Virus record (IMG/VR): IMGVR_UViG_3300008122_000012
Location: 1 to 20,175 of that record
DNA from: a virus
DNA: 20,175 bases
Direction: 5' to 3' (one strand)
Notes under the pieces: generated by a model
Seen by the model: only the letters and a program-made list of their open reading frames with translations
What the model was told of the DNA's origin: nothing
The model's database searches: none
Shown here: piece by piece, positions 1 through 20,091 of the stretch
Layout: every line of letters begins with the position of its first letter
How positions within the stretch are numbered: the first letter of the stretch is position 1
Program-made: the position numbers and the translations under genes

Positions 1-786
1 GTTTTGCCAATGGCAGACACGTATAAAGCAGGAAAATCATGTAATTTTATTTTAGGTGTACAATTAGAAATTAGAGATAATAATGGTATTATAAGAACCC
101 CAAAATCATATATTGGAACTACTCCATATGCAACTACTAGCTTTCCTACTATTGGTGACTATATAATACCAATACATAATAAAAATAAAAGTAAAATTAA
201 TAATATTGATAATAAGTTATTATATCTAAGTATATGTCCTGGCACATTTTATAAACACTATAAAAATCCAAACGTTCCAGGTATATATGGTAGCACATCT
301 AATAGTAGTTATAATTATGGATGTTTTATAAATTTTATTTTTAGACGATATGAAAATGGACATTATCTTTTTATAAGTAATGCTAGTGTATATCTTTTCG
401 ACACATTAAGAAATGAATCATCTAGTTTCGGTTTTACAAAAATTTATAATTATCCTACTATTCAATATAGTAATTCAGATAATTATATATTAAATAATCT
501 TACATTTTTTTCAAATTCTTATGTATCTATGGCTGACTTTTATAATGCTAAAAAATTATATGCGTTTCCATTAGAATATTATGTACCAGGCGGTGATGAT
601 AAAATGATATCGGACGATTTATTATTAGTTGGAAACAGTAAGTTATTTCCTGAATCAATTAATGCATTAATAAATATTAATATGGATGAACATATAACAA
701 AAAAATATATTCCGTTAAGTACAGGATATACAAATATGAAATTAAATGCTGACTCCGATATAACATTATTAATGGTTGACGAATGA
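1..786 (+). CDS. Probable tail-fibre-associated structural protein, 5' end possibly outside the window
   Basis: I do not recognise this protein. The frame is open to the left edge, so the true start may lie upstream; in-window candidates are TTG at 4 and ATG at 10, neither with a visible ribosome-binding site. The product is rich in Tyr, Asn, Ser and Ile, with no signal peptide, membrane segment or coiled coil, which fits a beta-rich virion protein. Its stop codon overlaps the start of the next gene (ATGA at 783-786), so the two are translationally coupled and probably serve the same structure. A role as fibre or baseplate-peripheral protein is inferred only from position in front of lectin-domain genes. 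Confidence 0.6.
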   Translation, partial: VLPMADTYKAGKSCNFILGVQLEIRDNNGIIRTPKSYIGTTPYATTSFPTIGDYIIPIHNKNKSKINNIDNKLLYLSICPGTFYKHYKNPNVPGIYGSTSNSSYNYGCFINFIFRRYENGHYLFISNASVYLFDTLRNESSSFGFTKIYNYPTIQYSNSDNYILNNLTFFSNSYVSMADFYNAKKLYAFPLEYYVPGGDDKMISDDLLLVGNSKLFPESINALININMDEHITKKYIPLSTGYTNMKLNADSDITLLMVDE

Positions 787-3518
787 GTAAAATTTTAAAT
801 AGTCCATTTTATAGCAATAAATTACATCAAACAGGTAAAACTGTATATAGTACACCTGATCATATATATACAATTGTTGATTATAACTATAGTTATGAGC
901 CAATATTTAGCGCGTCTTTATATCATAAAACTATTGATCAAATATATCCAATTCGTACAAAATATTTATATTCATCAGTTAAATTAGAATCGTTTGAAAA
1001 TATTGATGCTAATCAAAAAGATTCCTATCCAATTAAATATGAGTTATTGTATAGATCAAATGATCGCTATATTAAAATTGAAGAAGCTGTATCAGAAAAT
1101 GGTAAAGCTTCTTTTACAAACCTAATTAAAGGCTATACATATTATATTAAAGCAATTGATACAACTGGCAAATATCAAAGTAAAATGGTGCAATATATTC
1201 CAACTGAATATGATAATACACAAGAGCCTCAATTATTAGTATCATATAAAAATCTTTCATATGAAAAATTTCAATATTACTTTATCACCGCAAATGCTTT
1301 AGGTGAGAAATATGTATACCTGGAAAATAATAGCGATCATATCAAATTAGAAAAACTAGATGATAAGCGATATAAAATATCTTTGACAGAAGTTAAAAAT
1401 CGGGCAGACGAATTTGACTTAGTATATGAAGAATATCGTGACGAAAATATTATAAAAAAAGTAGAGCGCATTTATATTAATGATGGGTTCAGTACAGCTT
1501 ATGATATATCTATAAATTTTACAGAAAACGGATCTGCAATTTTTAAATGGAAAGGCGATGGTAAAATTGATTATTATAATGTTTATTTAAAAGGATCCAC
1601 TAATTCAAATGATTTACCCATAACATCAACTGGATTGAATACTTATATTACCAATGAATATCCTTTAGATAAAACTCGATATTTATCTATTGGATCAGTG
1701 AGAAATGGTAAAGAAAAATTACCAGTTGATATTGTTATTCCTGGCGTTGATCTATACTTAGATAAAGTTGAACTTTTAATTTTCGCCAATTATGGTAACC
1801 CAATAAAAGACACATCTTCAAAAAATACAAGTTTTACAATAAATGGAAATACAACAATTGTAAATAGCAATAAATTTGTAGATAATGGCGCTTTATATGT
1901 TGATGGTAATGGGGACGGTATTGTTATCCCAATTACTCCGTTAGGTGAATCAGATTTTACATTTGAATATTATTTTTCATTGTCATCTTATACCGGTACG
2001 CCACGTATGTTTGAATTTGCTGAAAGCAGCGGCTATAACCAATTATGTGGCGTATTTTATAATAATACTAATATACCATACTTAGCATATAAAAATAATA
2101 ATGTATGGGCTGATTATGGTAAAGATATAAAAACTATTCCAACAAATGAATATCATCATTATTGTATAATGAGAAAAAATAATGTCATTTATTATTTTAT
2201 TGATGGCGTATTATTAACTAAAATTACTGATACATTCCCATTAGTAGCGACACATTTATATCTTGGTCAATCACATATAAACGCTTCATATATTACTGGT
2301 TATTATAATTCGATACGATTAACTCGTGGAGTGGGTCGATATAATATAGATGGTTTTACTTTAAATGATGTTAGTATTACTGCACTTAATAAAATAACAA
2401 AACCAGATAGCATATCATACAATATAAAATCCAATAATGATTTAAGTATTACTATTAATCATGCAAGTAATAATGTAGATAATTATTCTATATATATGTC
2501 AGATGCTGAAATTACATCAGTTAATGGTCTAACACCAATAGCAAAAGATACAACTAATAAATCATTAGTTCTTCCTAATTTTGACGTTTATAATAATTAT
2601 GATAAAACTCTTAAACTAGTTGCTACTACAAATAAATATAATCATCAATATCTAAGCGATAATAAAGATATATATGTTGCTTATGATTGGACACCAGATA
2701 ATATATTAGGAAGAGTAGTTTGGTTAGATAGTAATAATATTGTATCTACTAATAATAAAATATCATCTGCTTTAGATATAAGTGGAAATAAAAATAATTT
2801 TTCCGCAGAGGCAAATGAAATGCCAACGTTATTATATGATTCTTCAGTAAATAGTAATGTTATTAGTTTTAATGGTATTGATACATTGATGAAATCTACA
2901 ATATCATTTAATAATTTATCTAGAGGTGCAAATAAAATATGGTTTTTTGCAGTATATAAGAAAACAAGCGATTTTGAAAACTCTCGTGCTCACGCATTGA
3001 TGCAATATAAAAGATCGAATGATAGTGTTTCAGCTGCTTTAACAATATCAGCTATTTCAACACTGGATATTTCAGGAAAATCATATATTCTAATTAGACC
3101 ATTAGATGATAATCCAGATTTATCATATTTAGGAGCATCAAATCCTGTCCTAAATAATAAATATCATATTTGTTTTTCTTATTGGGACGGTTCAAATAAA
3201 AAATATATGATAAGTTTCGATGGTGTTATTAATGAATCTTCAGATGGATCAATTGCCTCTGCTATAAGTTCAGCTCAAACAAGTTATCCTGCTATTTTAG
3301 GTTCTTCTGGATTTAGCGATTTTTGTTCAGCAAATTTATTAACAGTTATGTCGGGAATAGGATCAATTCCAACATTAAGCGTTATACGAAAATTAGAAGG
3401 TTGGGCTGCTCATAAATATGGATTAACTGATAATCTTCCGTCTGATCATCCATATAAAAATAGAAAACCAGTAATTGATCATACTCCATATAATTTATCA
3501 GCAGAATTTAAAAAATGA
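783..3518 (+). CDS. Tail fibre/adhesin with LamG-like and concanavalin-type lectin domains
   Basis: A 911-residue protein with a modular look. After an N-terminal part of unknown fold come fibronectin-like stretches. A LamG/concanavalin-A-like domain spans about residues 390-530, with the motif HHYCIMRKNNVIYYFIDG and the ending RLTRGVGRYNIDGFT. A second lectin-type domain runs from about 636 to the end: it begins RVVWLDSNNIVSTNNKISS and closes with KLEGWAAHKYGL, LPSDHPYKN. That closing signature recurs in phage and marine bacterial surface proteins. Such domains usually bind sugars, so cell-surface recognition is the likely job. The start overlaps the upstream stop and the stop overlaps the next start (ATGA at 3515-3518). 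Function is inferred from domains; which fibre it belongs to is unknown. Confidence 0.75.
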   Translation: MSKILNSPFYSNKLHQTGKTVYSTPDHIYTIVDYNYSYEPIFSASLYHKTIDQIYPIRTKYLYSSVKLESFENIDANQKDSYPIKYELLYRSNDRYIKIEEAVSENGKASFTNLIKGYTYYIKAIDTTGKYQSKMVQYIPTEYDNTQEPQLLVSYKNLSYEKFQYYFITANALGEKYVYLENNSDHIKLEKLDDKRYKISLTEVKNRADEFDLVYEEYRDENIIKKVERIYINDGFSTAYDISINFTENGSAIFKWKGDGKIDYYNVYLKGSTNSNDLPITSTGLNTYITNEYPLDKTRYLSIGSVRNGKEKLPVDIVIPGVDLYLDKVELLIFANYGNPIKDTSSKNTSFTINGNTTIVNSNKFVDNGALYVDGNGDGIVIPITPLGESDFTFEYYFSLSSYTGTPRMFEFAESSGYNQLCGVFYNNTNIPYLAYKNNNVWADYGKDIKTIPTNEYHHYCIMRKNNVIYYFIDGVLLTKITDTFPLVATHLYLGQSHINASYITGYYNSIRLTRGVGRYNIDGFTLNDVSITALNKITKPDSISYNIKSNNDLSITINHASNNVDNYSIYMSDAEITSVNGLTPIAKDTTNKSLVLPNFDVYNNYDKTLKLVATTNKYNHQYLSDNKDIYVAYDWTPDNILGRVVWLDSNNIVSTNNKISSALDISGNKNNFSAEANEMPTLLYDSSVNSNVISFNGIDTLMKSTISFNNLSRGANKIWFFAVYKKTSDFENSRAHALMQYKRSNDSVSAALTISAISTLDISGKSYILIRPLDDNPDLSYLGASNPVLNNKYHICFSYWDGSNKKYMISFDGVINESSDGSIASAISSAQTSYPAILGSSGFSDFCSANLLTVMSGIGSIPTLSVIRKLEGWAAHKYGLTDNLPSDHPYKNRKPVIDHTPYNLSAEFKK

Positions 3519-5041
3519 CTAATAGAATTGAACTAAAATGGAATTTAGATTACCCAGTTGATGAGCAGCGTTACTACTGCTCTGAGACACCGATAGATAT
3601 TGAAAATTTACCGGTGCCAAAAGCAATTATTGCAGCTGATGCAATTGGTTATATAGATACGGATATAGTGATTGATCAGAGTTACTATATAAGAATTGGA
3701 TCTGTAAAAAATGGTATAGAGAAAATTAGTAATGAAATTCATGTCATTACAGCGGATATTTATTTTAATTCTGTTGATTTATTGCTTATAGCAGATCAGG
3801 AAAATGGGACGAGCTTGTTGCGTGATTATTCAATCAAGAACCGATCAGTCACGACAATAGGTATTCGGCAGGCTAGACCAAAATTTAATAAGTCGTGTTG
3901 CTATTTTTCTCAAGGGGATAGCTTTAGTGCAACAATAAGTACATTAGGAATATCGGATTTTACGATTGAAAGCTGGTTTGCACCGAACGATGACTTATCA
4001 GAGGGTTGGTGTCGATTATTTCAAATTGGCGTTGAAGGGGCTGGATATATTTCGCTTTTTAGAAACGATTCGACATCACCAATGACATATACATTACATG
4101 CACGAGATGCAAGCAATACATCATTATCATTGATTACAACATCGCCGCTTCATTCAAAATCATATAGCTATAATCACATTTGCGTAATGAGAAAAAATGG
4201 TATATTTTATTTATTTATTGATGGTGTTTTAGCAGGGTCAAATGCGAACTATGTATCACTTAGTATTAATTTAAATACTTTATATTTATTAAGATCAGCA
4301 ACTAGACATTATATGTCAGCTATTCTTGATAGTTTTGCTGTATCAAAAGTAGCCAGATATGAAGTAACAGGATTTACTCCACAAGAACTGTCGGTGAGTG
4401 ATACAAAATTTAGTGATTTTGATTTGCTAATAATTTTTAATAATCTAAATATCGGACAGACAAGTTTTTTAGATTCATCTAGTAATGCACGAGCACTTTC
4501 AAAAGTAGGGAGTCCACTTGTATTAAAAGAATATATTTCTGATGGTTTTTTTGTTCAAGACAAAGCAACATCAAGCTGCAATATCTCTGCAACAGTTGAC
4601 AGTCTGGGTACGTCTGATTTCACAATAGAAATATTTTGCACACTGATTACTCTTATTTCGAATACCGATGGTAGTATTTTCCAACTCGGAGATGATTCGG
4701 TTGCAGGAAATATTCGCTTATATTTAGAAACAAGTACAAATAAACCAATATTATCTTTATATACAAATTCGGTAGTGTACCCGATAGCAGGATTACCAAT
4801 TATAGATAATAATTTTCACCACATTTGCGTAATGAGAAAAAATGGTATATTTTATTTATTTATTGATGGTGTTTTAGCAGGTTCAACTGCTGATTATGCT
4901 AGTTATTTAATTACACATAATATATTATATATTATGAATCGACCATCATTATCAAAAAAAGCCCCAATGTTATTGGATAGCTTTAGATTAACAAAAGTCG
5001 CTAGATATAATGTTACGGGATTTGCCCCATCTGAGTTTTAA
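3515..5041 (+). CDS. Adhesin/tail fibre protein with two LamG-type domains
   Basis: A 508-residue protein translationally coupled to the preceding gene. An N-terminal segment (YYIRIGSVKNGIEKI) resembles part of the upstream protein (YLSIGSVRNGKEKL), so the two genes share a module. Two LamG/concanavalin-like domains follow, at about residues 148-286 and 369-508. Each contains HICVMRKNGIFYLFIDGVL and ends in a KVARY-x-VTGF-type strand. The core of both domains is encoded by an identical 62-base stretch, pointing to recent duplication or gene conversion. Base composition is visibly less AT-rich than in the two genes before it, suggesting separate acquisition. Glycan binding at the fibre tip is the likely role, inferred from domain type. 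Confidence 0.75.
   Translation: MTNRIELKWNLDYPVDEQRYYCSETPIDIENLPVPKAIIAADAIGYIDTDIVIDQSYYIRIGSVKNGIEKISNEIHVITADIYFNSVDLLLIADQENGTSLLRDYSIKNRSVTTIGIRQARPKFNKSCCYFSQGDSFSATISTLGISDFTIESWFAPNDDLSEGWCRLFQIGVEGAGYISLFRNDSTSPMTYTLHARDASNTSLSLITTSPLHSKSYSYNHICVMRKNGIFYLFIDGVLAGSNANYVSLSINLNTLYLLRSATRHYMSAILDSFAVSKVARYEVTGFTPQELSVSDTKFSDFDLLIIFNNLNIGQTSFLDSSSNARALSKVGSPLVLKEYISDGFFVQDKATSSCNISATVDSLGTSDFTIEIFCTLITLISNTDGSIFQLGDDSVAGNIRLYLETSTNKPILSLYTNSVVYPIAGLPIIDNNFHHICVMRKNGIFYLFIDGVLAGSTADYASYLITHNILYIMNRPSLSKKAPMLLDSFRLTKVARYNVTGFAPSEF
4175..4236 (+). repeat. 62-bp direct repeat, copy 1 (LamG core)
   Basis: This stretch is identical base for base to 4820-4881, and both flanks differ immediately outside. 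It encodes the HICVMRKNGIFYLFIDGVLAG strand pair of the first LamG domain. Confidence 0.9.
4820..4881 (+). repeat. 62-bp direct repeat, copy 2 (LamG core)
   Basis: Second identical copy of 4175-4236, in the second LamG domain of the same gene and in the same reading frame. Identity at the DNA level, while the surrounding domain sequence has diverged, suggests gene conversion or recombination between the domains. Confidence 0.9.
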
Positions 5042-5105
5042 AAATATTAAATAAATATTAATCTGACCAATCATTAAAGACAAAAGGCTATTTTTAATGA
5101 CGATT

Positions 5106-5305
5106 TTATAAGGGATGTGTGCCTGAAATAGGGCCACGTACAATCAATAATGGAACGGTAAAATTGAATCTATTCATAAATACATTAAATTGATTCCGGC
5201 CAGAAGATGTTTTATCCACAAAGGATATAGATACATCAATTGAGCTAGCTCTACCGTAATCACTTTAGGATTAAACCGAGTAATGATTATCGGAGAATCA
5301 ACTAT
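5106..5305 (-). pseudogene. Probable decayed gene remnant on the minus strand
   Basis: Read on the minus strand, 5264 to 5106 is open for 52 codons and ends in TAA. It has a protein-like composition (DYGRASSIDVSISFVDKTSS, then FNFTVPLLIVRGPISG), using Gly, Pro, Arg and Cys/Gly-rich codons unlike random AT-rich sequence. Just upstream, in another frame, comes a fragment reading DSPIIITRFNPKVI that could continue into it if one frameshift is allowed. No start codon or ribosome-binding site joins them. The strand is opposite to the surrounding genes. I cannot assign a family. A chance open frame remains possible. Confidence 0.4.
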
Positions 5306-5369
5306 TTACAGATGTACTTTCAAATATAAATTAAAGTTTGTTGTGTTTTATGATTTAAATCATGTGCGT

Positions 5370-5446: not shown

Positions 5447-5974
5447 ATGAATCAGTATTGGTATGACAATAATCCGGCATTAACTTTATTTTATAAAAAT
5501 ATTATTCTCTTAGAAAAATCATATCAGTTCTTTATAGATGATGCTCTTGTTTCATTAAAGTACAATGTATACGAATATAGATGTGATAATGAAATACTTT
5601 TAGAAAAATTTAAAAAATCAGATGCCGAAGATACTCTTATTTCGGCATTTACATATATGACAAAGCGCCAACGTATATTACTCGCATTAAAAGTTAATAA
5701 ATTAATAAATGGATATTTAAAAGCCGTTGATAAAAATAAAATTGACAAAATAGCATTTGAATCTATTGTTCAAATATCAACCAGATTATCTGAAGAACAA
5801 TATATGCTAGAATCTATTGCAGCAATTAGTAAATTTTCTGATATGGTCACAAATGGCGTGATGAAGATAATAATGTATAAGATATTTAAACAATGGAAAA
5901 ATTTAATGTCAGAAGATTATCACGGCTATCATGGATTAAAAAAAACATTAAAAATTATCAAAAAATCTCACTAA
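5447..5974 (+). CDS. Hypothetical helical phage protein, 175 aa
   Basis: I do not recognise this protein. It looks mostly helical, rich in Lys, Ile, Leu and Tyr, with no signal peptide, membrane segment or metal-binding motif. The C-terminus is basic (GLKKTLKIIKKSH). The ATG at 5447 follows a GGGG-containing ribosome-binding region at good spacing and comes directly after the leader hairpin. The next gene starts 36 bases later with its own GGAG site, so the two probably share a transcript that ends at the terminator at 6421-6446. Confidence 0.7.
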   Translation: MNQYWYDNNPALTLFYKNIILLEKSYQFFIDDALVSLKYNVYEYRCDNEILLEKFKKSDAEDTLISAFTYMTKRQRILLALKVNKLINGYLKAVDKNKIDKIAFESIVQISTRLSEEQYMLESIAAISKFSDMVTNGVMKIIMYKIFKQWKNLMSEDYHGYHGLKKTLKIIKKSH

Positions 5975-6010
5975 ATAAAGTAAAAAAATACATTTGATTG
6001 GAGAAAAATA

Positions 6011-6421
6011 ATGTCTTTTGAAACTTATATTAATGAAAACAAACTTGGTATTACACCAGAACAAAAAGCTGCCGTAAAACAATTTTCTAAAGAATTGGTT
6101 GATGCGGGTCAGCGTTTAAAAGCTAAACTTAAAGTATTGCCAGTTGATATTGATACAAAATACATGGTTGTTAAAGTAGGATTCGATACTTTTGCAATTA
6201 AAGGTATTCCATCGCTACGCGTACATTCAACACATGGTTACTATGGTAAAGATAAAAAAGATATCGAAATTAGTCAATCAACCACTGATTTTACTCGTGA
6301 ATCTCTTAAACAGTATGCTGATGCTCTTAAAGAATTACATGATAATTATGATCTAATTGTAGAAGTTTTGGCTGATGTTGAAGATATCCGTAAAAAATAT
6401 CGTGATGCTTTAAATCACTAA
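6011..6421 (+). CDS. Hypothetical protein, 136 aa
   Basis: I do not recognise this protein. It is charged, with helical ends (the start is ETYINENKLGITPEQKAAVK and the C-terminal third is helical and Lys/Glu/Asp-rich) and a central beta-like stretch (YMVVKVGFDTFAIKGIPSL). There is no signal peptide or membrane segment. The ribosome-binding site GGAGA lies about 8 bases before the ATG. The codon usage is more regular than in neighbouring small genes, suggesting good expression. The stop codon runs straight into a bidirectional terminator shared with the convergent gene. Confidence 0.75.
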   Translation: MSFETYINENKLGITPEQKAAVKQFSKELVDAGQRLKAKLKVLPVDIDTKYMVVKVGFDTFAIKGIPSLRVHSTHGYYGKDKKDIEISQSTTDFTRESLKQYADALKELHDNYDLIVEVLADVEDIRKKYRDALNH

Positions 6422-6446
6422 AAAAAGGGCCGCAAGGTCCTTTTTT
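6421..6446. terminator. Bidirectional Rho-independent terminator
   Basis: AAAAAAGGGCC, loop GCAA, then GGTCCTTTTTT form an 11-bp stem with one G-U pair, a GNRA tetraloop and a U run on either strand. It lies between convergent genes, and the minus-strand gene's stop codon overlaps it. Confidence 0.9.
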
Positions 6447-6738
6447 AATGTAACTGTATCCCAAATTTTTTGATTCTTTGCTCTAAAAATGCTGGAAAAT
6501 CAATATTTGGGATATTTAAATATGGCTTTTCACATGCTTCAATTAAATCACTTAATAGAATTTCTGGCCATGCTAATTTAAGAGTATCATAAGCGTCTTC
6601 TATACTGTCAGACCTAATGTATGCTTTACATGTATCTTTTTCTTGCCACCAACAAATAATATTTTCTGTAAGATATATCATTGCGGTAGGCTTTAAATTA
6701 AATTGATTTCTCCAGTGATATAGATAAATCTGCGACAT
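6445..6738 (-). CDS. Hypothetical protein, 97 aa, minus strand
   Basis: I do not recognise this protein. It is acidic to neutral, with aromatic residues (YLYHWRNQF, ICWWQEKDTC) and a helical middle (SIEDAYDTLKLAWPEILLSD). No signal peptide, membrane segment or metal cluster is evident. The start is supported by AGGA about 7 bases upstream and by an extended -10 box at 6759-6767. The gene is convergent with the preceding gene and divergent from the next, so it forms its own one-gene unit, ending in the shared terminator. It may be an early protein directed at the host, but that is inference from layout only. Confidence 0.65.
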   Translation of the reverse strand: MSQIYLYHWRNQFNLKPTAMIYLTENIICWWQEKDTCKAYIRSDSIEDAYDTLKLAWPEILLSDLIEACEKPYLNIPNIDFPAFLEQRIKKFGIQLH

Positions 6739-6758
6739 CGTTTAATCCTAAAACATTG

Positions 6759-6767
6759 ATAATATCA
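6759..6767 (-). promoter_or_regulatory. Extended -10 promoter for the 6445-6738 gene
   Basis: On the minus strand the sequence reads TGATATTAT, an extended -10 (TGN plus TATTAT). The predicted start lies about 14 bases before the ATG. The -35 region is poor, as is usual for extended -10 promoters. Confidence 0.5.
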
Positions 6768-6780
6768 TACTATTATAGTA
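6768..6780. promoter_or_regulatory. 13-bp palindrome in the divergent promoter region
   Basis: TACTATTATAGTA is a perfect palindrome about one central base. It sits directly upstream of the minus-strand -10 and just before the plus-strand TTGACA at 6783-6788, where an operator shared by both directions would lie. Confidence 0.3.
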
Positions 6781-6827
6781 CCTTGACAAATTATTGTACA
6801 TACATGCTAAATTGTGTATAAAAGCGC

Positions 6828-6856
6828 TTTACTTTCGTTAAAAAATATGATTATAT
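6828..6856 (+). promoter_or_regulatory. Promoter for the gene at 6887
   Basis: TTTACT, a 17-base spacer ending in TGA, then TTATAT make a -35/extended -10 pair. Transcription would start near 6863, about 24 bases before the ATG. A perfect -35 hexamer TTGACA at 6783-6788, with a weaker TAAATT 19 bases downstream, could be a second start. Confidence 0.5.
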
Positions 6857-9928: not shown

Positions 9929-10873
9929 ATGGCCGAAAAATTAGAAACTAAATCAAAAATTTATGTTGAATATTACCCTTATGCCATACCTTTCGACCCG
10001 GAAGATGGGATGGACGTATTTAGTCCAACTGATGTAGCACCTGAAGTCGAAGATGTAGATCGTGAATTTAAATTAGTAAATTGTTATAATAACAACGTTT
10101 CTATTATGAAAAGCGGCGTAGAATATCCTTATACGGAACAACAACTTATTGAATTAAAAAAATGTAGTAGCGATATTTTATATTTTATCGTCAATTATTG
10201 TAAGATTGTTACTCTTAAACACGGCGTACAAAAATTTAAATTATTCCAGTATCAAAAAAATGCTATTAAGGTAATGCATGAGAATCGGTTTAGTATTTTC
10301 AAATTTCCGAGACAGATGGGTAAATGCTTAACTGGCGATACAAATATTTGTATTCGTATTAATGGCGATGAACTAACCTTAACAATGGCACAATTATATG
10401 ATCTTATTGAAATAGATAATCATGTTGAATCATATACGCCAAATGACGATTATCAAATTCTTACAGAAGATGGTTTTAAAGACTTTGATGGTATTACTTC
10501 TCGATATACAGATGTAGTATTAATGATTACTACAGATGATGGTAACCACGTTAAAGTAACGCCTGAGCATGAAGTTAAATTATATAATGGAACGTTCATT
10601 AAAGCTCATGAATTAAAAGTTGGTGACACATTAGGTATTAAGTCACCAAATATAATTACAGACATTATAGAGCTTACAGGTGAGTTTAAAGTAGCAGATA
10701 TGATATCGGTTAAAGATACACGTTCATTTGCTGTTAATGATATGTCGGCAATATTAAGTAACTGTATTGATGGTGATTCTATGGTGACATTACAAGATAA
10801 TCATACAGGCGAAATATTTGATATTCATGTTTCAGAATTGTATGATTATTTATTGAAAGGTAGTCAGCAATAA
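9929..10873 (+). CDS. 17: Large terminase (gp17) N-terminal part, broken at Walker A by two adjoining inteins
   Basis: gp17 is the ATPase/nuclease motor that packages DNA into proheads. Residues 72-132 match T4 gp17 (LKKCSSDILYFIVNYCKIV, then FQYQKNAIKVMHENRF, then the Walker A piece PRQMGK; T4 has SRQLGK-T). After K132 the sequence leaves the terminase. Residues 133-278 form a complete mini-intein, and residues 279-314 look like the N-terminal piece of another intein, followed by TAA. The rest of the ATPase and the nuclease domain are absent from this window. Splicing in cis and then in trans would be needed to rebuild gp17. The ATG at 9929 lacks a ribosome-binding site; ATG at 10010 follows GGAAG and is an alternative start. 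The alternative view, a dead gene copy, is less likely because all intein motifs are intact. Confidence 0.85.
   Translation: MAEKLETKSKIYVEYYPYAIPFDPEDGMDVFSPTDVAPEVEDVDREFKLVNCYNNNVSIMKSGVEYPYTEQQLIELKKCSSDILYFIVNYCKIVTLKHGVQKFKLFQYQKNAIKVMHENRFSIFKFPRQMGKCLTGDTNICIRINGDELTLTMAQLYDLIEIDNHVESYTPNDDYQILTEDGFKDFDGITSRYTDVVLMITTDDGNHVKVTPEHEVKLYNGTFIKAHELKVGDTLGIKSPNIITDIIELTGEFKVADMISVKDTRSFAVNDMSAILSNCIDGDSMVTLQDNHTGEIFDIHVSELYDYLLKGSQQ
10325..10762 (+). mobile_element. Mini-intein (146 aa) inserted in the gp17 Walker A motif
   Basis: The insert begins with Cys133 (CLTGDTNICIRI, block A). It has a block B with a T-x-x-H motif (VTPEHEV, Thr211 and His214), then HELKVGDTLGI. It ends with block F VKDTRSFAVND and block G AILSN, with Asn278 last and Cys279 as the +1 residue. 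There is no room for a homing endonuclease domain. The penultimate residue is Ser rather than the usual His, which can slow Asn cyclisation but is tolerated in some inteins. The site between Gly-Lys and the next residue of Walker A is a typical intein target, a conserved catalytic motif. Confidence 0.85.
10763..10870 (+). mobile_element. N-terminal fragment of a second, split intein (36 aa)
   Basis: Directly after the first intein comes CIDGDSMVTL...IHVSELYDYLL, then GSQQ and TAA. It has the block A pattern Cys-x-x-Gly-Asp-(Ser/Thr) and aligns well with the start of the first intein (CLTGDTNICI...LYDLI). Its length suits the short N-part of an atypical split intein; the known AceL-TerL intein of environmental phage terminases has an N-part of about 25 residues. 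Cys279 would be both the +1 nucleophile of the first intein and the first residue of the second. The C-part is not seen in this window. Confidence 0.7.
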
Positions 10874-11513: not shown

Positions 11514-12464
11514 ATGGTTATGGGTGGTAGATTATTTTATTCAGAGCGTTTAGATAATACTCGCATGGATCAGACGACATATAATAATGTCGTCTCTTTT
11601 TTAACCTCTAAATTGACTGAATATAATATTAGTCATAAAGTAGTCCCATATATTACTGAAAAAAATACATTTGGTGATATTGATATTATCATTGAGCCAG
11701 TTTCAATTGATGTATTACGCAAGATAGTTGGCGAATTCGTACCATATTCACGAAACTCAAATATTCATAGCTTTTTATTCCAACATAAATATCAAATCGA
11801 TTTTATTTTTTCAGAAAAAAATAAGTTTAATATGACTTCATTTTTTTATGGATATAATGATTTTGCGTGGATGATTGCTAAGCTATTAGAAAAAGGTAAT
11901 GCATATAAATTATATGAAAATGGTTTATATTATATTTATCATTCTAATTACAAGAATCATAATATTTTATTGACAGATAATCCAGATTTAATTTTGGAAG
12001 TATGCCAATTGAATCCATCCAGATATAAAGACGGCTTCAAAACATATACTGATATGTTTGATTATATTGGTGAATGTCCTATTTTGGGTTCATCATTATA
12101 TGCATTAGAAAGTATGTCACATAATAATCGGAAGATCTATAAAAATAGAACTACTTATAAAAAGTTTTCTAAATGGATGGACAAACATAATGTACCAGTT
12201 ACATCATATGGTAAATTAATTAGTCCTAATATTAAGTTTAATAATATTGTTAATCAATCGATTAATGAAATTGACTCTCAATATGAAAAAAATAAAACCT
12301 TTAAACAATCGTTTAATGGAAATTTAGTATCAAATTTGACAGGATTAAAGCATCATGAGCTAGGAAAATTTATGGCGTATATTCGTAAAAAATATACAGA
12401 CGAACAGTTAATTGAAAATGCGGCAACTATTATTTTACAAGAATTTAATGAAGGGAATATGTAA
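11514..12464 (+). CDS. Nucleotidyltransferase-fold protein (pol-beta-like)
   Basis: This 316-residue protein shows the carboxylate pattern of the DNA polymerase beta-type nucleotidyltransferase superfamily. FGDIDIIIEP supplies Asp55 and Asp57, and KYQIDFIF supplies a third carboxylate, Asp96. Phage and large-virus members share this GD-(L/I)-D layout and the following FYGYNDFAWMIAKL helix. It should transfer a nucleotide from NTP or dNTP to an unknown acceptor (nucleic acid, protein or small molecule). The usual Gly-Gly/Gly-Ser before the first Asp is replaced by TFG. The start may be ATG 11514 or 11520; neither has a clear ribosome-binding site. The stop overlaps the next start (TAATG), so the nuclease-like gene is coupled to it. 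Confidence 0.6.
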   Translation: MVMGGRLFYSERLDNTRMDQTTYNNVVSFLTSKLTEYNISHKVVPYITEKNTFGDIDIIIEPVSIDVLRKIVGEFVPYSRNSNIHSFLFQHKYQIDFIFSEKNKFNMTSFFYGYNDFAWMIAKLLEKGNAYKLYENGLYYIYHSNYKNHNILLTDNPDLILEVCQLNPSRYKDGFKTYTDMFDYIGECPILGSSLYALESMSHNNRKIYKNRTTYKKFSKWMDKHNVPVTSYGKLISPNIKFNNIVNQSINEIDSQYEKNKTFKQSFNGNLVSNLTGLKHHELGKFMAYIRKKYTDEQLIENAATIILQEFNEGNM

Positions 12465-13252
12465 TGGATCTTTCTATTTTACCTAAGAATTTTGAATATG
12501 CTTCACCAATGCAATTACGTTTTTTTAAAACAGCTACTATTCGTGAAATCTGCGAGGCTTATAACAAATATAAGACCCAACGCGATAATAGCAAATTGAA
12601 AAAGTCAATCCAAACAACTCGTAATTTATTAGAGATTTTGGAAGGCCAAGGATATGTATATTCATATATTGATGCATCAAGCTCATGGTTATCATTTGAT
12701 ACCATTGATATTAATATTAAGCAACAACTTCAACCAATAGCAGAAAATATGCAAATTAAAAATTCGCAACCAGTCGTTGAATCAGCCCCACCTGAATTAA
12801 CAGATTTTTCAACCATCCAAGTTGGTACTGAAGATGAATTGATGGAACAGTATGAGCCTAACTTAAAAGTAAATAACCCATTATTATGGGATTTAAAAGT
12901 TGCAACTAAATATACCAATATTATACGTTCAGCGGTTAAACGTGAATTAGATTTTAATTTAGATCTATCAGATGTAGAAGATTTAATTAGTCAACGTCGT
13001 TGCTTTTATACAGGTGTTGAATTTGACAGCACTAATGTTTTAACATTTGACCGCATTGATCATGATTTTGGTTATGTTAAAGGTAATGTCGTTGCTTGTA
13101 CAACACAAGCAAATGCCTTGAAAAACTCACTATTTGAATTAACTAATGGTGTATTTAAAGACATCACATCATTAAAACGCTTTGTTGATATTGTTTACTT
13201 GGGAATGTCTAAGTCAAATGATCCGCTACAAGACTTGTTACTTTTCAAGTAA
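12464..13252 (+). CDS. HNH-like endonuclease with an N-terminal helical extension
   Basis: The C-terminal part (about residues 176-225) carries a beta-beta-alpha nuclease pattern typical of phage HNH proteins: RRCFYTGVEF, then LTFDRIDHDFGYVKGNVVAC, then ANALKNSL. The catalytic region would use Asp196-Arg197-x-Asp199 and Asn217. The N-terminal 140 residues are helical and polar with no named domain, and may bind DNA. Such proteins are often free-standing homing endonucleases; others are housekeeping nucleases. Its place a few genes after the broken terminase recalls published fractured phage genes with an endonuclease gene between split-intein halves, but no C-half is seen downstream here. The start overlaps the preceding stop by one base. 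Confidence 0.65.
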   Translation: MDLSILPKNFEYASPMQLRFFKTATIREICEAYNKYKTQRDNSKLKKSIQTTRNLLEILEGQGYVYSYIDASSSWLSFDTIDINIKQQLQPIAENMQIKNSQPVVESAPPELTDFSTIQVGTEDELMEQYEPNLKVNNPLLWDLKVATKYTNIIRSAVKRELDFNLDLSDVEDLISQRRCFYTGVEFDSTNVLTFDRIDHDFGYVKGNVVACTTQANALKNSLFELTNGVFKDITSLKRFVDIVYLGMSKSNDPLQDLLLFK

Positions 13253-18272: not shown

Positions 18273-18947
18273 ATGCGTACAACAGACGAACATATAGATG
18301 AAGAATTAAATGACTGGAGTAATGACTTTTTTGATAAAGCACAAGACCACGATGAAGAATTCGACGAAGAAGGCAACTTTGTAGAAAAAGTTGAAAAAAA
18401 TGAAGACGTTGCATATAAACGTGTTGGTGACGACGAACAAGTAGTTGATACAGGCAGTATTGAACTATTCAATGTAGAACGTACTTCAGATGTAACTGGT
18501 AAAAAAGTTACTAACTACGTAGATAATGATGGTTTTTGTAATGCTGTAATTGCATGGAATGAAGCGTGTCGTACTGCTGCAGAAAATGGTGCACCAAAAC
18601 CGCCAATGCCTGATGTTATTGGACTTCAAATGCTTCTTATGGCCGAAGGTTTATCACGTCGCTATAATTTCCGTAACTACACATATATCGATGAAATGCG
18701 TGAAGATGCTGTCTATATGGCAATCCGAGCAGTTAAAAACTTTGACCCTACTAAATCAAGTAACGCATTCGGATATTTTAACCGTGTAATGTGGCAAGCT
18801 ATGACTACTCGTATTAAAACCGAAAAAGAAGAAAATGACGTTAAAATGTCATTATTAAAAGATCCAATGTATTTGGGTTATACATCGGAATCATCCGATA
18901 ATAATCAAGTGGATAAAGATCGTTTAATTTCAGTATATGATAATTAA
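18273..18947 (+). CDS. 55: Late-transcription sigma factor gp55
   Basis: gp55 binds RNA polymerase core and recognises late promoters (TATAAATA) together with gp33 and the sliding clamp. Residues 80-185 match T4 gp55: VIAWNEACRTA; PDVIGLQMLLMAEGLSRRYN (T4 [20 protein letters not shown]); VKNFDPTKSSNAFGYFNRV (T4 LHNFDETKYKNPHAYITQA); and RIKTEKEE (T4 RIKKERKE). The first 78 residues are an acidic extension (Asp/Glu runs) absent from T4. The C-terminus is shorter than in T4 and ends RLISVYDN, a hydrophobic-acidic tail that could serve as the clamp-binding motif. Two exact TATAAATA boxes elsewhere in the window are its likely targets. AAGGAT precedes the ATG. Confidence 0.92.
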   Translation: MRTTDEHIDEELNDWSNDFFDKAQDHDEEFDEEGNFVEKVEKNEDVAYKRVGDDEQVVDTGSIELFNVERTSDVTGKKVTNYVDNDGFCNAVIAWNEACRTAAENGAPKPPMPDVIGLQMLLMAEGLSRRYNFRNYTYIDEMREDAVYMAIRAVKNFDPTKSSNAFGYFNRVMWQAMTTRIKTEKEENDVKMSLLKDPMYLGYTSESSDNNQVDKDRLISVYDN

Positions 18948-19023: not shown

Positions 19024-20091
19024 ATGAGTAAGCATATCTTTATTACAGATATTCATTTTGCAGTTCGTAATGGCTCCCCATATTATATCGAAAGATATAA
19101 ATTATTTTTTAAGAACGTATTTTTCCCATATATTGATAAACATGATATTAAAACCGTTTATTGCTTAGGTGATACTTGGGAAGATCGTAAAAATATTAAT
19201 ATCAATGCATTAAAAGAATCTCGTGATATGTTCTTTAATGAATTAGAAAAGCGTGATATTAAATTCGTGGCGATCTTAGGTAACCATGATGTATTTTATC
19301 GTAACACCAATAATATTAACTCAATGGATATTATTGAATCATCTTATAAAAATGTTCATATTATTGAAGAATATGAAGAAATAAAAATAGGTCCAAAAGT
19401 GTTTGGATTTATGTCATGGGTAAATAATGAAAACCTGGAACGTAATTTAGAGCGTATTAATACTACATCTAATGCTGACTTTCTATGTGGTCATTATGAA
19501 ATCACCGGCTTTGAAATGACTAAAGGTAATATTGCAGAAAAAGGCTTCTCGCAAGAAATCTTTAATCGATTTGAAATGGTTTTATCAGGTCATTTTCATA
19601 TTAAAAATAAGATTGGTAATATTTATTATATTGGTAATCCATTCCAAACTAACTGGGATGATTATAATTCTGACCGTGGTTTTCATGTATATGATGATGA
19701 AACTAATGAAATTTTATTTATCAAAAATACATATGAAAACTTTGATGTAGTTATTTATGAAGATAGTGTCAATATTGATACTTTTAATTTTGATAAATAT
19801 AAAGATAAAAAAGTTAAAATTCTAGTTAATAAAGTAGCTCAATTAAAACAAGCATCTTATTTGACATTTATTGACAAATTAAATGACGTATGTTTTGAAT
19901 TTACAGTTGTTGAAATAAATGAAGAAGTTTTAAATGAGAATTCAACTGCTGCATTAACTATTAAATCTAATATCGATATGATCAAAGATTACGTAGATAC
20001 ATTAACTATTGAGCAAAATAGAAAGTCTGCTGCGATTAATATTATGCTTGATTTATATAAAGAAGCAACCAATTTAAGAGAAAGTAATTAA
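19024..20091 (+). CDS. 47: Recombination nuclease subunit gp47 (SbcD/Mre11 family)
   Basis: gp47 is the nuclease subunit that with the gp46 ATPase resects DNA ends for recombination-dependent replication, homologous to SbcD/Mre11. All five metallophosphoesterase motifs are visible: ITDIHFA (Asp9, His11), LGDTWEDRKN, LGNHD, CGHYE and SGHFHIKN. The length, 355 residues, is close to T4's 339. The capping region resembles T4 gp47 (CGHYEITGFEMTKG against T4 VGHWELNGFYFYKG). The start at 19024 has AGG some 12 bases upstream. The hairpin at 18960 separates it from gp55. A short gene with a strong AAGGAG follows instead of gp46, which is not seen in this window. Confidence 0.93.
   Translation: MSKHIFITDIHFAVRNGSPYYIERYKLFFKNVFFPYIDKHDIKTVYCLGDTWEDRKNININALKESRDMFFNELEKRDIKFVAILGNHDVFYRNTNNINSMDIIESSYKNVHIIEEYEEIKIGPKVFGFMSWVNNENLERNLERINTTSNADFLCGHYEITGFEMTKGNIAEKGFSQEIFNRFEMVLSGHFHIKNKIGNIYYIGNPFQTNWDDYNSDRGFHVYDDETNEILFIKNTYENFDVVIYEDSVNIDTFNFDKYKDKKVKILVNKVAQLKQASYLTFIDKLNDVCFEFTVVEINEEVLNENSTAALTIKSNIDMIKDYVDTLTIEQNRKSAAINIMLDLYKEATNLRESN

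Follow-up and report, generated by a model that had tools for sequence, protein, structure and literature searches.

Fractured genes, in which a phage gene is broken by a split intein, were reportedly described by Dassa et al. in 2009. Split inteins with a short N-terminal fragment (IntN) are known from phage terminases, with an IntN of 25 amino acids (aa) in AceL-TerL and 37 aa in GOS-TerL (PMC11766414). These systems, and the consensus Cat intein, are described with one split intein per terminase. Here we describe a gene for the large terminase subunit (TerL, gp17) that is interrupted within its Walker A motif by two abutting inteins, in a 20,175-bp virus fragment from IMG/VR (record IMGVR_UViG_3300008122_000012, positions 1 to 20,175; hereafter the window). 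As judged from sequence comparison, this gene very probably encodes fragment 1 of a four-fragment TerL, which one cis-splice and three trans-splices would rebuild. The locus resembles AceL-TerL, GOS-TerL and Cat in its terminase host and in its short IntN (36, 33 and 47 aa for the three split inteins), but differs in combining three split inteins in one protein with a stacked cis intein.

The open reading frame (ORF) in question, P1, begins with a TerL N-extein that shares 44–45% identity with the N-terminal parts of intact TerLs. The original prediction placed after it a mini-intein (Cys133-Asn278, here intein A), a second intein start at CIDGDSMVTL (IntN1 of split intein 1) and, 36 residues on, a stop, a layout that is correct to the base (Table 1). 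The codons at the border of the two inteins read ILSN and then CIDGDS, with zero extein residues between them, so the predicted direct run from one intein into the next can be read from the sequence itself. A 380,997-bp phage contig, G001 (IMGVR_UViG_3300011242_000001), carries P1 with the same layout and the same stop at 98% aa identity to the window ORF, and its N-extein is the same at 396 of 396 bases. A third contig, L002, belongs to a second, diverged lineage and has the same two-intein stack in a P1 of 64% identity; the LSN-CIDGDS junction is invariant in all three. Since the same structure recurs in independent contigs, an assembly error, including one at the stop as the prediction itself had allowed for, or a chance frame is very unlikely. 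In-frame readthrough of the stop is ruled out, as no intein sequence continues behind it. P1 has no relatives among the bacterial and archaeal genomes scanned.

Because the window is a fragment of its phage, pieces 2–4 were looked for in relatives. Searching G001 with intact TerLs reveals exactly four strong pieces (P1–P4) and no intact TerL in the contig. A C-part encoded elsewhere, with gp17 resuming after Walker A, had been predicted, and P2 of this 98%-identical relative is such a gene; neither of two outcomes named as fatal to the prediction, an intact gp17 elsewhere or a missing C-part, is seen in G001. The predicted cis-splice followed by trans-splicing thus keeps its C-part but not its count, as it foresaw two pieces where there are four, with three split inteins. 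The pieces are unlinked, lying at 37.8, 194.9, 197.8 and 327.6 kb and spread over about 290 kb. Their seams, GK/T, VN/C and EIN/C, each have matching intein fragments on both sides. At the first, the C-terminal intein fragment (IntC1, 117 aa) starts with Met and ends LSHN followed by TT, which restores GK/TT. With a short IntN and an IntC in separate genes and continuous exteins, split intein 1 in G001 fits the atypical split type. All three IntN/IntC pairs have the class-1 residues, with Cys or Thr at +1, and IntC3 matches the Cat intein structure 6DSL (E 8e-10). The third seam, QEIN/CSFLG, we take to be the insertion site of AceL-TerL.

Joined on paper, the four exteins form a TerL of 568 aa with zero gaps at the seams relative to intact TerLs, to which it is 45–47% identical over more than 510 residues. 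This product hits both Terminase_6N (PF03237, 1.4e-18) and Terminase_6C (PF17289, 1.3e-10), and matches T4 gp17 (3EZK) with an E value of 2.8e-91 and the nuclease residues D, E and D aligned. It contains the Walker A and Walker B motifs, the acidic triad of the RNase H-like nuclease and both domains of a T4-type TerL. T4-late-promoter-like TATAAATA motifs are located upstream of P3 and P4 in G001, with none upstream of P1 or P2.

Intein A retains the class-1 residues in all three contigs: C133, the block B TxxH (TPEH), block-F D257, the terminal N278 and, at +1, C279. A penultimate His is frequent in inteins but not obligatory; intein A has Ser277 in its place in all three contigs. The sequence of intein A matches Pfam Intein_splicing with an E value of 3e-5, below the curated cut-off, and it also matches solved inteins (2LCJ, 7.5e-6; Cat, 2e-5). 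An AlphaFold model of intein A alone, built from nine alignment rows, has a predicted local distance difference test score (pLDDT) of 74 and a Hint fold: all 50 of the 50 best PDB matches listed by Foldseek are inteins or other Hint domains, at TM 0.3–0.64. A model of the whole of P1 from a three-sequence alignment (pLDDT 40) was unusable. The ratio of nonsynonymous to synonymous substitution (dN/dS) of intein A is 0.16 against G001 and 0.18 against L002, and that of the IntN1 fragment is 0.18; these low values indicate that both are under purifying selection. Intein A differs from its G001 allele at 17 of 438 bases between identical immediate flanks (Fisher p 2e-6). We do not claim an allele replacement, as divergence elsewhere in the locus rises to 3.6% over 250-base stretches.

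In L002 the stack is three inteins deep, with an extra 327-aa intein exactly between the Lys and the Cys of intein A. This front intein starts with Asn, contains LAGLIDADG_3 and ends in HN followed by Cys1 of intein A. Its lack of a Cys1 and its WCT triplet (NHDW, SYCITV, PTHN) place it in class 3, as this triplet defines the class (PMC7891396). Its best matches are mycobacterial DnaB class 3 inteins (6BS8, E 6e-17), and it shares with the Mycobacterium smegmatis DnaB intein the missing Cys1, the WCT triplet and the LAGLIDADG motifs. Unlike the DnaB type, it adjoins another intein directly, whose Cys1 serves as its +1 residue. No stacked junction beyond those of the window, G001 and L002 came up in a scan for them.

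The two inteins of P1 had been suggested to be related insertions, but their 19% identity and their positions in a tree of 18 TerL and related inteins speak against this and rule out a recent duplication of one intein. Split intein 1, entered as IntN1 and IntC1 joined, groups with the GK/T-site family (SCTP-2, VmeM-32, Magnus and G005; support 0.98), while intein A lies on a separate branch, nearest to split intein 2 with weak support (0.78). By parsimony, split intein 1 would have been there first, intein A would have come later, in front of it, and the class 3 intein of L002 later still. Each newcomer would thus sit directly before the resident's Cys1 and obtain the +1 nucleophile that it needs. 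We propose this double role for Cys279, as Cys1 of split intein 1 and +1 nucleophile of intein A.

We infer splicing itself, its order, the hand-over of a thioester and the orthogonality of the three pairs. First, intein A would leave in cis, joining Lys132 to Cys1 of IntN1. IntN1 would then pair with IntC1 on fragment 2 (TerL 133–216), and GK would be trans-spliced to TT, restoring Walker A. The second split intein would join fragment 2 to 3 at VN/CLYIDE, in Walker B, and the third would join fragment 3 to 4 at QEIN/CSFLGSS, in the nuclease domain.

Inteins form a thioester on Cys1, pass the N-extein to the side chain of the +1 residue and cyclise their terminal Asn. In intein A, the thioester would form on C133, the N-extein would move to the side chain of C279 and Asn278 would cyclise, leaving the N-extein in thioester linkage to Cys279, whose amino group is free. 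Because the thioester of split intein 1 in its linear form is chemically identical to this species, the acyl group could be transferred without prior formation of a peptide bond. With IntC1 bound, the acceptor could be Thr133 of fragment 2, reached either directly or by way of an S-N shift and reactivation. Head-on-tail accretion at one junction would be possible since the resident's class-1 Cys1 would supply the newcomer's +1 nucleophile. We put forward only tentatively, as somewhat doubtful, that inteins accrete in this way and that the stack is a thioester relay, each excision leaving the next intein's activated thioester, that gates the assembly of a TerL from four unlinked genes by three orthogonal split inteins. 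Fragments 2 and 3 carry an IntC and an IntN at opposite ends, a cyclising topology if these are matched, so the three pairs are predicted to be mutually selective. If the pairs cross-reacted, these fragments would cyclise or mis-join, and a co-evolved orthogonal set of split inteins is therefore to be expected should the four-fragment reading be true. Net charge offers no explanation of how the IntN/IntC pairs would be orthogonal.

An identical end product would arise, by chemistry that is possible, if split intein 1 acted first and intein A, carried along in the N-extein, left last with Thr133 as its +1 residue. Inteins that combine Cys1 with Thr+1 do exist (12% in a survey cited in PMC11766414). 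However, Cys, the usual partner, follows intein A in all three contigs, and no partner protein is needed for an intein to fold and splice in cis, which makes the reversed order unlikely. Less probable again is that intein A never acts alone, and that after thioester formation on Cys133 the 182-aa unit of intein A and IntN1 is shed whole, as an oversized N-intein, on arrival of P2. The lost penultimate and block-F His could indeed disable C-terminal cleavage by intein A, and a long IntN is known in SCTP-2 (95 aa). Against this, the C-terminal block and terminal Asn of intein A are invariant and the intein is under purifying selection, L002 has a further intein ending HN/C in front, and the acyl group would have to be transferred from one Hint active site to another, separate one.

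That the four polypeptides form a working terminase by non-covalent association seems very improbable. Split enzymes can function unspliced, and a genes-in-pieces ribonucleotide reductase reported for a phage offers a model for such assembly (cited in PMC10448857). Yet matching intein halves lie at every seam with their catalytic residues kept over deep divergence, Walker A is cut between GK and T, and 30–180 extra residues would remain on each side. That P1 is an assembly artefact or a dead gene and that an intact TerL lies elsewhere, for which the window's being a fragment of its phage is the one argument, is hardly credible in view of the identical structure in independent contigs and two diverged lineages, the purifying selection and the lack of an intact TerL in the 381 kb of G001.

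We favor a four-fragment TerL rebuilt by splicing on the strength of the four pieces, their gapless seams, the conserved catalytic residues, purifying selection and the lack of an intact copy in G001. Several points weigh against it. Its support consists of sequence comparison and predicted structure, and pieces 2–4 are seen in the 98%-identical relative G001, the window's own phage being represented by a 20-kb fragment. Intein A has Ser at its penultimate position, and its block-F His is Arg in this phage (His in L002); this may slow Asn cyclisation. IntC2 ends in KN (RN in the second lineage), and the fragments searched did not yield P4 of the second lineage.

P2 and P3 of the second lineage are located on contig G003, from the same metagenome as the L002 contig with P1; their break sites and relative order match those of G001. 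Since both lineages share these, at least these two pieces were dispersed before the lineages diverged. A scan with the GK/T-site IntC returned more than 550 relatives, 80 of which were retained. TerL broken at GK/T is common among these 80 loci, and none of them shows a stacked pair. Several have TerL broken twice, at GK/T and either near residue 216 (L174, L183 and L204) or at 309 (L193, L198 and L216). In L190 (2607–7527) TerL is broken three times, at exactly the three sites of G001, with the four pieces collinear within 5 kb; ORFs read by eye as endonuclease-like occupy the first two gaps, one of them GIY-YIG-like. L190 and the twice-broken collinear relatives suggest a collinear, thrice-fractured ancestor whose pieces were scattered later in the jumbo phage lineage. 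These loci share the split-intein break with fractured genes, and L190, L174, L193, L198 and others keep their pieces close, with endonuclease-like genes in some gaps. In contrast, G001 has unlinked pieces and three breaks in one gene; a free-standing endonuclease gene between the halves, as in fractured genes of the Dassa type, was not seen there and, judging by its ORFs, is present in the first two gaps of L190.

Isolated phages show intermediate stages of TerL fragmentation. TerL is encoded by two unlinked genes, at 46 and 73 kb, in Campylobacter phage NCTC12673 (GU296433; L134, L167), and by two unlinked genes with a cis intein in Vibrio phage vB_VmeM-32 (VmeM-32). The split-intein ends in NCTC12673 are at DE/CAF, and the frame of its C-part has no annotated gene. 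Salicola phage SCTP-2 (MF360958; L132, L136, L138), an isolated jumbo phage, has TerL in three unlinked genes with two split inteins and a cis intein. One of these split inteins is at the same GK/T site but without a stacked intein, and the rest of its TerL is one piece with the extra cis intein. In SCTP-2 fragment 2 (L132, gene 267, 5959–6852) the last 95 codons form an unusually long IntN; with its partner IntC likewise of full length (112 aa), the two halves overlap. The TerL of Klebsiella phage Magnus (Ackermannviridae) has a cis intein at the same GK/T site that groups with split intein 1, but here the intein is single and the gene intact, unlike the split gene of G001.

Our literature search, of limited coverage, found no account of a natural protein built by three split inteins, nor of inteins abutting without an extein, and in this it does not contradict the earlier suggestion that no complete intein directly next to a split one has been described. 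Engineered multi-segment tandem trans-splicing has used two inteins and three segments (PMC12707363). If the four-fragment reading is true, an essential motor made from four polypeptides would be a natural version of such tandem trans-splicing. Stacked inteins that share one Cys raise the question of a thioester relay and suggest an evolutionary rule for the accumulation of mobile elements at a site already occupied. Terminase-based phage classification would miss such phages; in SCTP-2, the annotated terminase is the middle piece only.

Table 1 Features of the P1 locus, the TerL pieces and neighboring genes. Coordinates of the G001 pieces are those of stop-to-stop frames.
Feature	Sequence	Position	Strand	Remarks
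P1 ORF	Window	9929–10873	+	314 aa: TerL N-extein, intein A, IntN1, stop
TerL (gp17) N-extein, residues 1–132	Window	9929–10324	+	PHROG terminase large subunit, E 2.6e-18
First half of Walker A, PRQMGK	Window	10307–10324	+	End of N-extein (residue 132)
Intein A, Cys133-Asn278	Window	10325–10762	+	146-aa class-1 cis mini-intein without endonuclease domain
Shared junction Asn278-Cys279	Window	10760–10765	+	Read directly from sequence
IntN1, Cys279-Gln314	Window	10763–10870	+	36-aa N-fragment of split intein 1, begins CIDGDSMVTL
TAA stop of P1	Window	10871–10873	+	Same stop in G001
P1	G001	327568–328512	minus	
P2	G001	197750–198460	plus	IntC1 (ends NVLSHN), then TTVAAGYIVHQ...SVRGQSVN, then IntN2 CIDINTMITV
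P3	G001	194938–195825	plus	IntC2 (ends FLVKN), then CLYIDELGF...SVDQEIN, then IntN3 CIAANTII
P4	G001	37754–38860	plus	IntC3 (ends NNILSHN), then CSFLGSSNTL, nuclease domain to end
SCTP-2 middle TerL piece (L132)	MF360958	256428–257321		Sole piece annotated 'terminase large subunit'
HNH endonuclease-like/Srd-like gene	Window	12464–13252	+	phrog_3118 HNH endonuclease, E 3e-22; phrog_1400 Srd, 2.9e-23
GIY-YIG/NUMOD3 I-TevI-like endonuclease gene	L002	3534–4415		Ends about 15 bases before second-lineage P1
T4-type late sigma factor (gp55-like)	Window	18273–18947		
SbcD/gp47-like nuclease	Window	19024–20091		

The HNH/Srd-like gene lies 1.6 kb downstream of P1 and has a homologue downstream of P1 in L002; it could be a free-standing homing endonuclease associated with the site. 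The gp55-like sigma factor and the SbcD/gp47-like nuclease point to a T4-related jumbo phage. The window matches the G001 locus from base 5317 on only; in positions 1–5316, the large upstream genes differ from those of G001 and possibly code for tail or surface proteins. In a scan of G001 with an intein profile, partly trained on these sequences, nothing was matched apart from the TerL pieces and a cis intein that lies in ribonucleotide reductase. In the latter gene (G001:114935–117838; L011:166–3072), the cis mini-intein is followed by an odd stretch that resembles an eroded second intein.
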